A DNA stretch of 64,000 nucleotides, taken from NCBI GenBank assembly GCA_017428625.1, contig JAFRQM010000049.1, positions 1 through 64,000 of the forward strand, given 5' to 3'. Of this stretch, positions 43,181 to 49,222 are shown piece by piece (within the stretch, counting starts at the first letter, position 1; each line of letters opens with the position of its first letter). The notes beneath the pieces are model-generated. The model was not told the origin of the DNA, did no database searches, and saw only the letters and a list, made by a program, of their open reading frames with translations. This DNA is from Clostridia bacterium (GTDB lineage: Bacteria > Bacillota > Clostridia > Oscillospirales > Acutalibacteraceae). Made by a program: the position numbers and the translations under genes.

Positions 43181-43657
43181 TTATTCTTTTATTATTTTCC
43201 ACTTTTCAATCAGTTTTTCAAGGCTGTAAGCCGCGTTGGCAGGTGATGTTGACGGCAGGCATACGGCTTTGATTTTTGTTTTTTCAAGCAGATATTTGTC
43301 ATAATACTTTTCGGCTGTTTTTCCGTTGACAAAAATATTTTTAATATTTGCCGTGCCGAGAATGATGTCAAGGTCATTGGCAACGGCGTTTTTGATTGAC
43401 AAATCCGAACTGCCGTTTATTTCACACTGCGCTATAACATCCCAGAGAGCAATATGGTTTTCAAGCAGAAACCGTTTTTTCTTATCGATTGTTTCGGGCG
43501 CATCACACCCGAAAACAGCGGCCGTGACCTTCCAGAAACGGTTTTGTTTATGACCGTAGAAAAACTCAGATTCCCGCGATTTGACAGACGGAAAACTGCC
43601 GAGAATCAGAGTTTCGCTGTTTTTGTCAAAAACAGGCGGAATGTTGTGAACAACCAT
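43181..43657 (-). CDS. Hypoxanthine-DNA glycosylase (uracil-DNA glycosylase superfamily, HDG type)
   Basis: Base-excision repair enzyme expected to remove hypoxanthine (deaminated adenine) from DNA. It shows ILGSFPSVKSRE near 18-29, the YGHKQNRFWKV stretch and the C-terminal LPSTSPANA motif of the Mug-related HDG group, at 158 residues. It is the last gene of a seven-gene minus-strand unit, four bases after the NpmA-like gene. Confidence 0.82.
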   Translation of the reverse strand: MVVHNIPPVFDKNSETLILGSFPSVKSRESEFFYGHKQNRFWKVTAAVFGCDAPETIDKKKRFLLENHIALWDVIAQCEINGSSDLSIKNAVANDLDIILGTANIKNIFVNGKTAEKYYDKYLLEKTKIKAVCLPSTSPANAAYSLEKLIEKWKIIKE

Positions 43658-43661
43658 CTTA

Positions 43662-44318
43662 TCACCCGGTTGTTCCGGTTATACGGTAGAAATCACGCTT
43701 TCTGCCGAATGCGAGCCGTCTTGCCCATTTTGAATCAAAACTTTTGACATACTCGTTGTCAAACAGTTCAACATTCTGAACCGTCAGACCGTATTGCGAA
43801 AGCCTGTCTTTGTATTCACCGTTGAAATATTCTGTGCTCAGTTCCGGCATATTGCGGGTTTCCATCATATTTTCTTCGCAGTTCGCGCTGTATGTTGTAA
43901 TAAACTCAAACTTCGCTCTCGGTTTAGCCGCTTTTCTGAGGGCAGCAATAAACTCTTCTTCAGGCTTAACTATTCCTTCAAGCAAAACACCCCAGGGGAA
44001 AAGAACAGTTATATAATCGGCAATGCCGTATAGTTCGGGCGGCAGGTTTTCGGCAGTCGATACAACAAGCAAGGTGTTTTCGACTCCGCCTTTTTCCGGC
44101 TTCTTTGCTATTTTGACAGCAGTTTCTTCCATGTTTTCTTTAACAGGGTCAAGCCCGATATAAAATGTTTCTTTGTCATTTTTTGCCTTGCGATAAATGT
44201 TTTTGCCGTCACCCGTTCCTATATCAATGCAAACTTTATCGTATGCGCAAATCAATAATCTGAGTTCATCTTCGCTTATCTCTTTTGCGGTCCTGCCGCG
44301 CAAAACGGTTATTCCCAT
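43662..44318 (-). CDS. NpmA/KamB-like 16S rRNA (adenine-1408-N1) methyltransferase homologue
   Basis: SAM-dependent methyltransferase that closely follows the aminoglycoside-resistance enzyme NpmA. It has IDIGTGDGKNIY (31-42) for SAM, GLDPVKEN (55-62), FPWG with Trp109 and the C-terminal SKWARRLAFGRKR with Trp198. In NpmA the equivalent Trp107 and Trp197 clamp the flipped A1408. NpmA residue numbers here are from memory and not from an alignment program. Length 218 matches. The predicted effect is N1 methylation of 16S A1408 and resistance to many aminoglycosides. It starts in a TAATG overlap with the PDZ lipoprotein gene, so it is expressed with the ABC transporter unit. Whether it is a native housekeeping enzyme or a resistance gene is open. 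Confidence 0.88.
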   Translation of the reverse strand: MGITVLRGRTAKEISEDELRLLICAYDKVCIDIGTGDGKNIYRKAKNDKETFYIGLDPVKENMEETAVKIAKKPEKGGVENTLLVVSTAENLPPELYGIADYITVLFPWGVLLEGIVKPEEEFIAALRKAAKPRAKFEFITTYSANCEENMMETRNMPELSTEYFNGEYKDRLSQYGLTVQNVELFDNEYVKSFDSKWARRLAFGRKRDFYRITGTTG

Positions 44319-44818
44319 TATTGTTCACCGCTTGTTTCTACGCTGCCAACATAATCGGGGAAGGTAACATCAACATCAAAATATTCATTTTCACCGTTGA
44401 TAAGATTCAAACGGAACGCGCTGATTTTTACCGTGTCGCCCGGGTTATGCGATGCAAGAATATCGTAAATATCGTCAAGCGTGTTTGTTTCCCGACCGTC
44501 TATAGCCTGAATAATGTCGCCGGGACGGAATTTCGTTTTGTCAAGCACGCTGTCCTTCGTCATTTTGGAAACATAAACGCCTCTGCATTCGTCAACCCAT
44601 TTGGCAATTCCGCTCTTTCTCATCATATTTTCATCAACAGCCGTTGCGTTTGAAACCCCGAGGTGAACTTTGAGCGGGGCACGGGTAGTTGTTTCTGCCG
44701 TCTGTTCTGTCGTTTCAACCGGAATTTCCGTTCCCGTTTTTGACTTTGAGCAGGCTGGCATTACGAGTATTGTCAGCACAATAAACAAAGAGGCAATAAC
44801 TGCGATTATCTTTTTCAT
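44318..44818 (-). CDS. PDZ-domain lipoprotein
   Basis: Exported lipoprotein: basic start, hydrophobic segment and lipobox VMPAC (Cys23), then a Thr-rich linker and a PDZ-like domain (about 50-155) with GVYVSKMTKDSVLDK and RPGDIIQAIDG. No protease domain is present, so it is probably an adaptor. It follows the DUF4340 gene by nine bases. Confidence 0.8.
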   Translation of the reverse strand: MKKIIAVIASLFIVLTILVMPACSKSKTGTEIPVETTEQTAETTTRAPLKVHLGVSNATAVDENMMRKSGIAKWVDECRGVYVSKMTKDSVLDKTKFRPGDIIQAIDGRETNTLDDIYDILASHNPGDTVKISAFRLNLINGENEYFDVDVTFPDYVGSVETSGEQ

Positions 44819-44827
44819 TTAAGCACC

Positions 44828-45808
44828 TCAATCCTCATTTTCTGCCGGGCTTTCAGTAATGACGGAGTCAACGCTGTCAATTAGCAGCGGTTCAATAACA
44901 GATCCGTTAAGTGTGTATATCATTTCGCCGTCATCAACGCAGGCAAAATAATCGTCTCCGTTTTGCAAACCTATTTTAAGAACAAGTTTGTTTTCAACCG
45001 GTTCTTCACTGTCGCCGTCTTCAAGAGTGTATGTAAATGTGAGCGTGTAAGACGGTTTGTTAAGGCCGTATCCATCATATTCCGCCTTATAATTAACGCA
45101 TTTGTCAAACTGAACCGAACCTGCGGCAATGTGTATTTCTTCTGCCTTGTCATCGGGCACGGTTTTTTCTTCACCGCCGTCTGAAATATTATATCCGTTG
45201 CCTGTTTTGATTATTGAAACTTCTGCTTTTTCACTTGTAATTCCGAGCGAATCAAACTGAGCAAGGTCGGGCAGTTCCTCAACTTCAATAAGCCTGTAAA
45301 CATCATCGGGAAACGATTCCGCAACCCTGAAATCAACCAGATAAACGCTTTTTTCCAGGCTCGAAACAAAATAATTGCCTGACGAATACATATCTTTGTC
45401 ACCGAATGAATATGTAATCTGACTGCCGTCTTCAAGCGTTGCGGTTACTTTCAGGGCAGGGGATTCAAGCCCGTATTCGTCAAGGTCTCCCGGCTCTGCT
45501 GCTACAAGTTTCATAGCGTCAATTGTTTTTAAACTTTCGGCAAGACCATCGGCTGTTGTCTGACTTACAGGGAAAGAACTGTCGGTTGAAAGAATCCATT
45601 TATTCTTTTTTGTCAGGGAACAGATATCTTTACCATCAACGTTCCAAGTCAAAGTATTAACCTCTCCGTCAAATTGAGCGGCGGTTACCGATATTACATC
45701 GTCATCCTCCTCCGGTTCTGCATAATGCCGGCTGACAGCAAAATAGCCCGCAATAACAGCACCGAGGCAGAGAACCAAAATCAATATAAGTTTAAGTGTC
45801 TTTTTCAT
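44828..45808 (-). CDS. DUF4340 membrane-anchored protein
   Basis: One N-terminal membrane helix (about 5-25) and an outside domain of about 290 residues with repeated WxL-like beta units typical of DUF4340. These proteins accompany Gld-type ABC transporters in many phyla. It overlaps the GldG-like gene by one base. The detailed role is unknown. Confidence 0.82.
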   Translation of the reverse strand: MKKTLKLILILVLCLGAVIAGYFAVSRHYAEPEEDDDVISVTAAQFDGEVNTLTWNVDGKDICSLTKKNKWILSTDSSFPVSQTTADGLAESLKTIDAMKLVAAEPGDLDEYGLESPALKVTATLEDGSQITYSFGDKDMYSSGNYFVSSLEKSVYLVDFRVAESFPDDVYRLIEVEELPDLAQFDSLGITSEKAEVSIIKTGNGYNISDGGEEKTVPDDKAEEIHIAAGSVQFDKCVNYKAEYDGYGLNKPSYTLTFTYTLEDGDSEEPVENKLVLKIGLQNGDDYFACVDDGEMIYTLNGSVIEPLLIDSVDSVITESPAENED

Positions 45809-47250
45809 CAGCGCTTTTTTCTTAACACAATAACGGTAATTCCCGCAAGAATAACAAGAGCGGGCACTATACCGACCATAACGGTTTTAAGCACGGATGA
45901 TGTGCTGCTGTTCATGGTCAGAACATCATAACTTACCGATTTTGAAGGGATACTGACTGAATTTTTCGTTTCACACAGCCAGCCGAATGACTTGATAAAC
46001 AGTATTGCGTTTGCTCCCGAAACAGACTGGTTTACAGTAGGATCCATAAACTTGGATGTTGAGTAATAAACCATTTTGCCTTCATTATAAGTCACGGCGG
46101 CGCCGAGTTTGAATGTGCCGTCAACTTCAATGTCGCCTTCCTCTTTTTCGGATGATTGCTTTTCTTCAATGTTTATTGATGAATAAGCCTTTTCACTCGT
46201 TGAAAGAAGCGACTGTGTTTTTATTCCGTCGGGCAGGTCTTCGCTTATTGTGAAGCCCTGGGTCTGCGGAAACATAACATAATAGTTTGTCAGGTCGTTA
46301 GTGATTTCGTGGTTGTCTGTGTGCGGCAGAAGCATATAGTTTATGCTCATCCCGTTATATGAATAGCAGTATTCCTTGTCAAGTTCAACAAGAATTCCTT
46401 TAACAAGCTCTATGCCGTAACCTTTAAGAAATGAAACGAGATTGGGGTATTTCTCAATATCAACCTCATCGGATACCATAAAGATTTTTCCGCCTCCGGC
46501 GGCATAATCATTGAGCGCCTTGACATCCTCTTTTGAAAGGTCAAGAGCGGGGTTGATGATTGCCACGCAGTCTGTGCCTTCGGGAACTCCGCCCTCGGCG
46601 GCAAGTTTCAGCGAACCGATTTCATAGTTTGCGTTTGAAAGCGCAGAACTGAATGTCGAATCAAGGTCTTCCTCACCGTGACCGGTCAGAAAACTTATAA
46701 CCGGCAGATTGTCGCTTGTTACATAATTAATACCGTTGGTAATCATATTTTCAGCGGCAAATGCAGTGGGCTGATATTGATATGTCGCATAGTCAACGGA
46801 ATACTCATACAGGTCGTTGCCCGAAATGATTTTTGACCTTTTATCGCAGGCAACAATTATACTGCCGCTTTCAACATCCTCATCAGTATATTTCGATGTG
46901 AATTTCGGGTTTACAATGGGATCAATGATTTTAACATTGATTTTCGGACTTGCTGAGTCATAACTGTTGAGCAGCGATTTTACCGATGAATCCTCCGAAC
47001 CCGACTCAACCACATAGAAGATGTTGACGTTTTCTTTAAGAGAGTCAACAACGCCTTTTGTTATGTTGCCCACAGAGAATTTACCCGTTGATGATAAATC
47101 AAATGATGTGAACTTAGAGGGAAGTTTCGGAATAATGAGATTAACAACAATTATAATCGCAAGCACCACGGCAATAAGAATGAGTGAAACGCCGCCCGCT
47201 TTGGATGAACGGGATCTGAAAGCGTCTTTTACACCTGCGTTTTTGCTCAT
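45808..47250 (-). CDS. GldG-like ABC transporter auxiliary protein
   Basis: Membrane protein of about 480 residues with a helix near 20-40, a large outside domain of the GldG/ABC_transp_aux type (SFLTGHGEEDLD, AAGGGKIFMVSDEV) and a C-terminal helix ending in RKKR. Together with the ATPase and permease upstream it forms a Gld-type transporter. In Bacteroidetes the homologues serve gliding; here no gliding genes are present and the cargo is unknown. ATG 47250 is behind GGAGG; the open frame begins earlier at a GTG inside the upstream gene. Confidence 0.83.
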   Translation of the reverse strand: MSKNAGVKDAFRSRSSKAGGVSLILIAVVLAIIIVVNLIIPKLPSKFTSFDLSSTGKFSVGNITKGVVDSLKENVNIFYVVESGSEDSSVKSLLNSYDSASPKINVKIIDPIVNPKFTSKYTDEDVESGSIIVACDKRSKIISGNDLYEYSVDYATYQYQPTAFAAENMITNGINYVTSDNLPVISFLTGHGEEDLDSTFSSALSNANYEIGSLKLAAEGGVPEGTDCVAIINPALDLSKEDVKALNDYAAGGGKIFMVSDEVDIEKYPNLVSFLKGYGIELVKGILVELDKEYCYSYNGMSINYMLLPHTDNHEITNDLTNYYVMFPQTQGFTISEDLPDGIKTQSLLSTSEKAYSSINIEEKQSSEKEEGDIEVDGTFKLGAAVTYNEGKMVYYSTSKFMDPTVNQSVSGANAILFIKSFGWLCETKNSVSIPSKSVSYDVLTMNSSTSSVLKTVMVGIVPALVILAGITVIVLRKKR

Positions 47251-48113
47251 TATGCCCACCTCCTTCTTTCAAGAACCTGAACACTCAGAACACAGAAAAG
47301 AATTATTGTGCTGAGATAAAGGGCAATTGTCGAAATGTCAAGCGAACCGTAAACAATGTTGAAATACTGTTCAAACAGTTCGATTTTATTAAGAATTTTC
47401 GGGAGTATTCCTTGAATAAGTTCAGCCTTTATCAGCCTTATCGCGATAAGAACAAGCAATAAAACTATTGAAACGATGTCGGCGAGCACAGCGTTCTTTG
47501 TAACAGCCCATACAATCAGACCCACAACAATTACAAGCAGAACAAGAATAACCGTTGATGCAAAAAGTGTTGAGGGAATGTAATTCGTAAGGTTGTTCAT
47601 AAAGTAGTTAAGCAGAAGAACCGCAAATGAAATTATAGCCGCAATAATCTGATTTTCGGTAAGCAGAGAAATAAACATACATACCGCTGTCAGAGCCGCG
47701 CCGAGCAGGAAGAAGCCGAGCATCGCAGCATAAACAAGCCTGAAATTCACATTACCGAACCGAGAAAGAATAAGCGGATAAATGCCCGTAAAAAAGCAGG
47801 GAATGCCGAGAACGACAAGTGAGGCAAAATATTTACCGAGAACAATTTCACTCATTTTAAGCGGCAGTGAATATAAAAGACGGTCCGTTCCCTGTTTCTT
47901 TTCTTCTGCAAACATTCTCATAGTGAGGATGGGCACAAACAGCATAAGCACAAAAACGGTGTTGCCGTAAACAAACTCAAATGCGGAGTATTGATATGAA
48001 AGGCAGTAGATCATTGTGTAAATGCCCATCATAACAAGCATTACAGCCAGCAGGATATATCCGGTAAACCCCGTGAAATATCCGCGCAGTTCTTTTTTAA
48101 ACACAGCGCCCAT
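47250..48113 (-). CDS. ABC-2 type transporter permease (GldF-like)
   Basis: Integral membrane subunit of 287 residues with about six hydrophobic segments and the MRMFAEEKKQGTDRLLYSLP coupling-helix stretch common to this group. It overlaps both neighbours by one base, so it is made with the ATPase and GldG-like protein. Confidence 0.86.
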   Translation of the reverse strand: MGAVFKKELRGYFTGFTGYILLAVMLVMMGIYTMIYCLSYQYSAFEFVYGNTVFVLMLFVPILTMRMFAEEKKQGTDRLLYSLPLKMSEIVLGKYFASLVVLGIPCFFTGIYPLILSRFGNVNFRLVYAAMLGFFLLGAALTAVCMFISLLTENQIIAAIISFAVLLLNYFMNNLTNYIPSTLFASTVILVLLVIVVGLIVWAVTKNAVLADIVSIVLLLVLIAIRLIKAELIQGILPKILNKIELFEQYFNIVYGSLDISTIALYLSTIILFCVLSVQVLERRRWA

Positions 48114-49183
48114 TATTCATCAGCCTCCTCACTTGAGTTGTTGTTTGTTTCATCAACAATATTGTCGTTTGTCTCATCAACCGCATTTCCGGCATCCTCT
48201 GCAACATTGTATGCGGGGGTTTCCTGAACAGGCGCGCCGCCCGTAAGCATGTGAAGGTTTTCGCTTGTAACTTCAAGGAAGATATCTTCAAGACTTGCTT
48301 TTGAAAGGTTCATTGAAATAACAAGAATGCCGTTGTTCATAAACACTTCCGCCAGTTTTTCGCGTATATCATCGCCGGATGTAATAACAAGTTTTGCGGT
48401 TCCGTCCGTCGCTCCGTCGTCAATTTCAACCTCTTTAACCTCGTCAAGCTGAGCAACTGCGTTTGCTGCGGAATCGGCGTCGCCTTTGATTACAACCTCC
48501 GTTACCGTCGAAGGATTAAAATGACTTATGAGATTTTCAGCCGTGTCAGACGCGACTATTTCGCCGTTTGAAATAATGATTATTTCATCGCATACTTCAC
48601 TTACCTCAGGCAGAATATGGCTGCTGAGAATAACCGTGTGGTTTTCGCCGAGTTCTTTAATAAGGTTGCGTATCTCAACTATCTGCTTAGGGTCAAGGCC
48701 GACAGTGGGCTCGTCAAGAATAACAACATGCGGGTTGCCCAGAATTGCCTGCGCAATGCCAACCCTTTGTTTATAGCCTTTTGAAAGGCTTTTTATCAGT
48801 TTGTTCGCTACATCCGAAATTCCGGTTTTAGCCATTACAGTCGGAATCGCTTCATTGAGTTCCGCCTTTTTCATCCCCTTTGCTCTGCCTACAAATCTGA
48901 GATACTCAAGGGGAGTCATATCTGGGTAGAGCGGGGGTATTTCGGGAAGATAACCGATGCATTTTTTTGCTTTAACCGGTTCTTCAAATATATCGCAGCC
49001 GTTGACGGTAACAGTGCCGGATGTTGCCGCAAGGCAGCCGGTGATTATATTCATTGTTGTTGATTTACCCGCGCCGTTGGGACCTAAAAACCCGTAAATT
49101 CTGCCGTCTTCAATTTTGAAACTGATGGAATCTACCGCAGTGTGATTTCCGTATTTACGCGTAAGATTCTGAACCTCTATCAA
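48113..49183 (-). CDS. ABC transporter ATP-binding protein (GldA-like)
   Basis: Cytoplasmic ATPase that drives the permease next to it. It has Walker A GPNGAGKST (34-42), signature LSKGYKQRV, Walker B VVILDEPTVGLDP and an H-loop. The C-terminal region adds a ~120-residue domain ending in an Asn/Glu-rich acidic tail. I start at TTG 49183, six bases after GGAGGA, since the family sequence begins MIEVQNLTRKYG. It is the first gene of a seven-gene operon. Confidence 0.9.
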   Translation of the reverse strand: MIEVQNLTRKYGNHTAVDSISFKIEDGRIYGFLGPNGAGKSTTMNIITGCLAATSGTVTVNGCDIFEEPVKAKKCIGYLPEIPPLYPDMTPLEYLRFVGRAKGMKKAELNEAIPTVMAKTGISDVANKLIKSLSKGYKQRVGIAQAILGNPHVVILDEPTVGLDPKQIVEIRNLIKELGENHTVILSSHILPEVSEVCDEIIIISNGEIVASDTAENLISHFNPSTVTEVVIKGDADSAANAVAQLDEVKEVEIDDGATDGTAKLVITSGDDIREKLAEVFMNNGILVISMNLSKASLEDIFLEVTSENLHMLTGGAPVQETPAYNVAEDAGNAVDETNDNIVDETNNNSSEEADE

Positions 49184-49222
49184 AACAATTCCTCCAATCG
49201 GTTCAAATTTATTCAATTCTAA

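Follow-up and report, generated by a model that had tools for sequence, protein, structure and literature searches.

The locus and its operon

The window, by which we mean the whole 64,000-nucleotide stretch of Clostridia DNA that was analysed, carries a gene for a putative 16S rRNA methyltransferase at positions 43662..44318. In the window's open reading frames, this interval is a minus-strand frame of 218 amino acids, and reading it on the plus strand meets stop codons; the strand given in a preliminary description of this DNA was therefore wrong. The gene is the sixth of seven minus-strand genes arranged head to tail, which are listed here in the order of transcription:

48113..49216, minus strand: GldA-like ABC ATPase, which opens the unit (TIGR03522, E 2.9e-97, below cut-off; PF00005)
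47250..48113, minus strand: GldF-like ABC permease (TIGR03518, E 1.2e-29, below cut-off)
45808..47259, minus strand: GldG-like ABC auxiliary protein (PF09822, E 1.4e-20; TIGR03521, E 1.3e-12, below cut-off)
44828..45808, minus strand: DUF4340 protein (PF14238, E 6e-32)
44318..44818, minus strand: PDZ-domain lipoprotein (PF13180, E 3.9e-11; lipobox-like VMPAC read in the sequence)
43662..44318, minus strand: NpmA-family 16S rRNA (adenine(1408)-N1)-methyltransferase, 218 aa (PF24675, PDB 3mte, predicted fold)
43181..43657, minus strand: hypoxanthine/uracil-type DNA glycosylase, which closes the unit (TIGR04274, 138.7 bits, cut-off 80)

The order of the reading frames and the Pfam and NCBIfam matches agree with the seven-gene unit proposed earlier. 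The label "Gld-type" holds as a family resemblance, but the scores lie below the NCBI cut-offs. The described coupling of the methyltransferase to the PDZ lipoprotein is visible as TAATG around position 44318, where the stop codon of the PDZ gene and the start codon of the methyltransferase overlap; downstream, the glycosylase begins 4 bases past the methyltransferase stop. The GC content of the methyltransferase gene (0.434 vs 0.446 for the window) is host-like. In a related genome, G032 (L033:7738-8997), the PDZ gene is replaced by one encoding a 419-aa protein, by eye a membrane-bound M28-type peptidase, and the methyltransferase is still in the operon.

DUF4340 proteins, the mark of this type of ABC operon, occur in 151 of the 197 genomes of the order. 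Since the operon type is common without the methyltransferase, which is found in only about 1% of genomes, the linkage of the two tells little about function. A general module of ABC transporter and methyltransferase was rejected on these counts: the transporter offers the gene a landing site in the window lineage and is no general partner.

Family assignment and predicted fold

The window protein matches the Pfam NpmA family over its full length (PF24675, E 1.2e-68, 231 bits, cut-off 60) and the NCBIfam NpmA model with similar strength (NF000030, E 3e-71, 239.5 bits). The exception-level cut-off of the latter, which defines the allele, is 470 bits. With about half of that score, the window protein is a relative of NpmA and not NpmA itself, and an npmA allele was thus ruled out. 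Its residues 3-216 match the PDB entry of NpmA, 3mte (E 4e-69), and its identity to plasmid NpmA is 51% over 214 residues.

An AlphaFold2 model was built from the window and locus sequences (pLDDT 91.5). The model has a class I fold with an N-terminal beta hairpin and extended beta5/6 and beta6/7 linkers, and its top PDB match is again NpmA (3MTE, TM 0.95, 1.4 A, whole chain), followed by CacKam, NpmB1, KamB, Kmr, and UncKam. Sequence, key residues, and predicted fold together uphold the original assignment as an NpmA-type A1408 methyltransferase homolog. Membership in a defense system was also considered; the only match, to mad2, is weak (E 1e-8), covers part of the methyltransferase fold, and was taken as general methyltransferase resemblance.

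Counterparts of the NpmA residues that handle A1408 and SAM

The 218-aa protein contains each of the motifs read earlier: GTGDGKN, GLDPVKEN, FPWG (W109), and WARRLAFGRKR (W198). Residue roles were drawn from studies of the family (PMC12340973, PMC4705659, PMC5109232), according to which W107 and W197 of NpmA stack on the flipped A1408. D30 of NpmA binds SAM and is essential (PMC5109232, PMC4705659), and R207 contacts the A1408 phosphate (PMC4705659). The residue map places the corresponding codons as follows:

44223..44225, minus strand: codon of D32, equivalent to NpmA D30
43992..43994, minus strand: codon of W109, equivalent to NpmA W107; invariant in 75/75 family members
43725..43727, minus strand: codon of W198, equivalent to NpmA W197; invariant in 74/74 members with this column filled
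43695..43697, minus strand: codon of R208, equivalent to NpmA R207

Both tryptophans are thus invariant across the 75 family members wherever the column is filled. Identity to NpmA extends to D30, T33, G34, N38, D55, P56, E88, F105, W107, and L110, as well as to E146, R153, S195, W197, R200, R205, K206, and R207 (NpmA numbering), and to the linker lysines K67, K70, K71, and K74. The window protein accordingly carries both tryptophans with the SAM aspartates D32 and D57, the basic beta2/3 docking surface (K69, K72, K73, K76), R208 and E148 as counterparts of the R207 and E146 that serve base flipping in NpmA, and R155. In an alignment with both enzymes, the NpmA-type residues are kept and identity is 51% to NpmA and about 32% to KamB; since the NpmA-type E146/R153 pair is absent from KamB and NpmB1, the window protein is NpmA-type in detail. 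The preliminary description would have yielded to a closer match in another family that lacks the two tryptophans and the basic C-terminus; NpmA is the best match, and these residues are retained.

Three NpmA positions are changed, namely K66 to V, T109 to V, and L196 to K, the last two of which touch SAM in NpmA. T109V and L196K, together with a weak similarity to the TrmB m7G46 methyltransferases, could be read as signs that the target has shifted to another rRNA or tRNA base or that activity has been lost. We regard this as very improbable: all A1408-specific residues are kept (both Trp, F105, E146, R153, R207), NpmA outperforms TrmB by a wide margin as a structural match, and the low pairwise dN/dS of the methyltransferase (0.07-0.16) indicates purifying selection.

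Distribution and retention in the genus

The methyltransferase was found in 5 of the 45 genomes of the genus, each time downstream of the GldAFG/DUF4340 genes, and the comparison of operon placement that had been proposed gave the same position in 5/5 carriers with an assembled locus. In a sixth genome, G808, the ABC genes are present and the contig ends inside the DUF4340 gene. G015 was rejected as a carrier, as its ABC genes are divergent (30-39%) and no methyltransferase lies downstream. The gene was not found in the 39 other genomes of the genus and is missing from about 99% of genomes of the window's order and class; it is therefore no general housekeeping gene, and the suggestion of a housekeeping role finds no support at the level of the genus.

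The carriers are close kin. In RnfB, G029 is 97% identical to the window, G808 95%, G030 90%, and G032 82%, and every other genome of the genus in which RnfB was found reaches at most 77%. No RnfB was found in the fifth carrier, G809, whose metallophosphatase matches that of the window at 89% identity, equal to that of G029 and the highest in the genus. As the carriers are the closest relatives by RnfB, they form one subclade in which the methyltransferase is fixed. The earlier description of the gene as native thus stands for this subclade, where it is fixed in the same operon, but not across the genus (5/45). The assemblies of the window genome and ten related genomes contain no 16S rRNA gene.

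The branching order of the methyltransferase tree follows the order of the species, between-species dS (1.1-1.4) resembles that of the neighboring genes, and the 17 kb surrounding the gene are collinear with another species (G029/L031). No relatives were found in 72,556 plasmids, 50,697 phages, or viral contigs. A mobile acquired resistance gene was rejected on the grounds of these searches and the collinear chromosome; the same collinearity and the host-like composition support the prior remark that no mobile element lies close by. The methyltransferase is an old, vertically kept chromosomal gene and not a fresh acquisition.

These data bear on whether the gene might instead lack a native role, having been horizontally acquired for aminoglycoside resistance and kept because farmed ruminants are under antibiotic selection. 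Its patchy presence (about 1% of genomes in the order and class) would fit such a history, as would the known resistance genes in the family, the mostly ruminant-gut origin of the named close relatives, where drug exposure is plausible, and the eight direct neighbors of more distant relatives that match MATE efflux models. Against it stand the identical operon position in all carriers, the native composition, and the lack of a mobile element and of plasmid or phage relatives. Moreover, a between-species dS as high as that of the neighbors implies that the gene is older than antibiotic use. On balance, acquisition under drug selection appears unlikely.

Kinship with plasmid-borne NpmA

A scan of named genomes in an 84,980-species collection yielded 117 relatives, of which 80 were retained. 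The nearest are mostly ruminant-gut metagenome-assembled genomes (isolate names RUG, RGIG, Sheep_Rumen, Goat_Cecum, and Roe_deer_Rumen). Plasmid NpmA and 12 chromosomal genes, almost all of which come from Clostridia of the ruminant gut, form one clade that is strongly supported in three trees (100/99; SH-aLRT 99; 100/98). The window gene is one of five genes that make up an ABC-operon group within this clade, and the genes nearest to NpmA are those of Ruminococcus (L034, L035; 55-57% identity). One tree favors a position of NpmA inside the chromosomal group (92/83); strict nesting was set aside, as it is not enforced by the AU test of nested vs sister placement (p 0.27). One genome of the window's order, G237, carries a sequence identical to that of the Ruminococcus MAG L036, so the host probably belongs to the order that includes Ruminococcus.

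Judging by sequence identity, the chromosomal genes found are too far from NpmA for any of them to be its direct donor. The proposal that the window gene is a source of such resistance genes therefore survives at the level of the clade (100/99), but not for the window gene as the direct source, given 51% identity vs 55-57% for L034 and L035.

Two other placements were observed in the family. UncKam (PDB 7JLZ, "an uncultured bacterium") groups with L061, a gene of candidate division WWE3 (100/100), and one member, L102, lies on a contig titled Euryarchaeota archaeon.

Neighborhood with rsmI and rsgA

The main new observation is the adjacency to rsmI. Among the chromosomal members of the NpmA clade, those outside the ABC group directly adjoin rsmI or rsgA in 7/7 loci, the identities of these neighbors being confirmed with NCBIfam models: rsmI in L034, L035, L036, L038, and L039, and rsgA in L037 and L040, where the methyltransferase lies beside rsgA and downstream of rpsF-ssb-rpsR. 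The methyltransferase precedes rsmI in L034 and L035 and comes after it in L036, L038, and L039; two gene orders imply more than one arrangement event. The base that RsmI and RsmH methylate, C1402, lies six bases away from A1408 (PMC12406665).

When the flanks of all 80 loci were scanned (1.17 Mb), rsmI was found in four further loci from Actinomycetota, Pseudomonadota, and Myxococcota (L066, L086, L087, L100), beside the methyltransferase or within about 0.5 kb of it, and no other rsmI or rsgA turned up in these flanks. RsmI models matched 8 of the 140 direct neighbors scanned; one of these eight, L087, joined the list after the scan. By a post hoc estimate that assumes genomes of 2000-4000 genes with about one rsmI each, about 0.05 adjacent rsmI would be expected by chance among 80 loci, the observed cases not all being independent. 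The adjacency needs at least 5 changes on the family tree, several long branches of which are weakly placed. The window genome has one rsmI gene, which lies on a different contig (G000:C24), so the rsmI link is missing in this host.

Among the direct neighbors (set A3), the eight that match MATE multidrug efflux models may mark a resistance context in those lineages, and five match TruB (tRNA pseudouridine 55 synthase).

Proposed function and wider meaning

We favor, with a probability of roughly 0.8, the reading that the gene encodes a native, vertically kept m1A1408 enzyme of the NpmA/Kam family and that the host is intrinsically insensitive to aminoglycosides. As a class I SAM-dependent enzyme of this family, the protein would dock on the assembled 30S subunit, A1408 of 16S helix 44 would be flipped out between W109 and W198, and the N1 of the flipped base would then be methylated. 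We infer this activity from family membership and residues. Being native and vertically kept in one lineage of gut Clostridia, the gene would make its host insensitive to most 2-deoxystreptamine aminoglycosides as a consequence of A1408 methylation. We likewise infer this resistance and the physiological reason for which the gene is kept. NpmA lowers the fitness of E. coli (PMC12406665), which makes it unlikely that the gene would be kept without a benefit. In this clade, the enzyme probably modifies the decoding centre or protects against natural drugs, and is less likely to reflect recent clinical selection.

A broader and more tentative idea, to which we give somewhat less than even odds, is that m1A1408 may be a regular native modification of the decoding centre in scattered anaerobic and environmental lineages, introduced by NpmA/Kam enzymes that are linked to rsmI or rsgA or reside in lineage-specific operons, and that clinical NpmA was recruited from there. 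If so, NpmA would be a recruit from the ribosome-modification genes of gut Clostridia and not from an antibiotic producer, which bears both on the origin of mobile npmA and on the everyday role of A1408 methylation outside antibiotic producers. The adjacency to rsmI (C1402) or rsgA opens a native role at the decoding centre to direct test, and gut Clostridia would be marked as a reservoir of genes for pan-aminoglycoside resistance.

Comparison with known systems

With plasmid-borne NpmA from E. coli (PDB 3MTE, 4OX9), the window protein has in common the fold, the A1408-handling residues, and a well-supported clade; unlike plasmid NpmA, the window gene is chromosomal, vertically kept, and situated inside an ABC operon. 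Matches to NCBIfam models or PDB entries put KamB, NpmB1, CacKam, Kmr, UncKam, and WarA in the same family, and they have the same fold. KamB and NpmB1 also have both tryptophans and the SAM aspartates, at an identity of about 32%, and the other A1408 methyltransferases placed in the tree fall outside the clade of NpmA and gut Clostridia.

According to its title, a recent report describes NpmC, an A1408 methyltransferase found in human and animal guts (Matamoros et al., 2025, cited in PMC12340973). As far as the title goes, the habitat is of the same kind as that of the window gene, and the matches include no NpmC model; the window gene may be close to NpmC, and the report may already cover part of the present findings. 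RsmI and RsgA, which act in 30S modification and biogenesis, are unrelated to the window methyltransferase as proteins and are the genomic partners of seven NpmA-clade genes.
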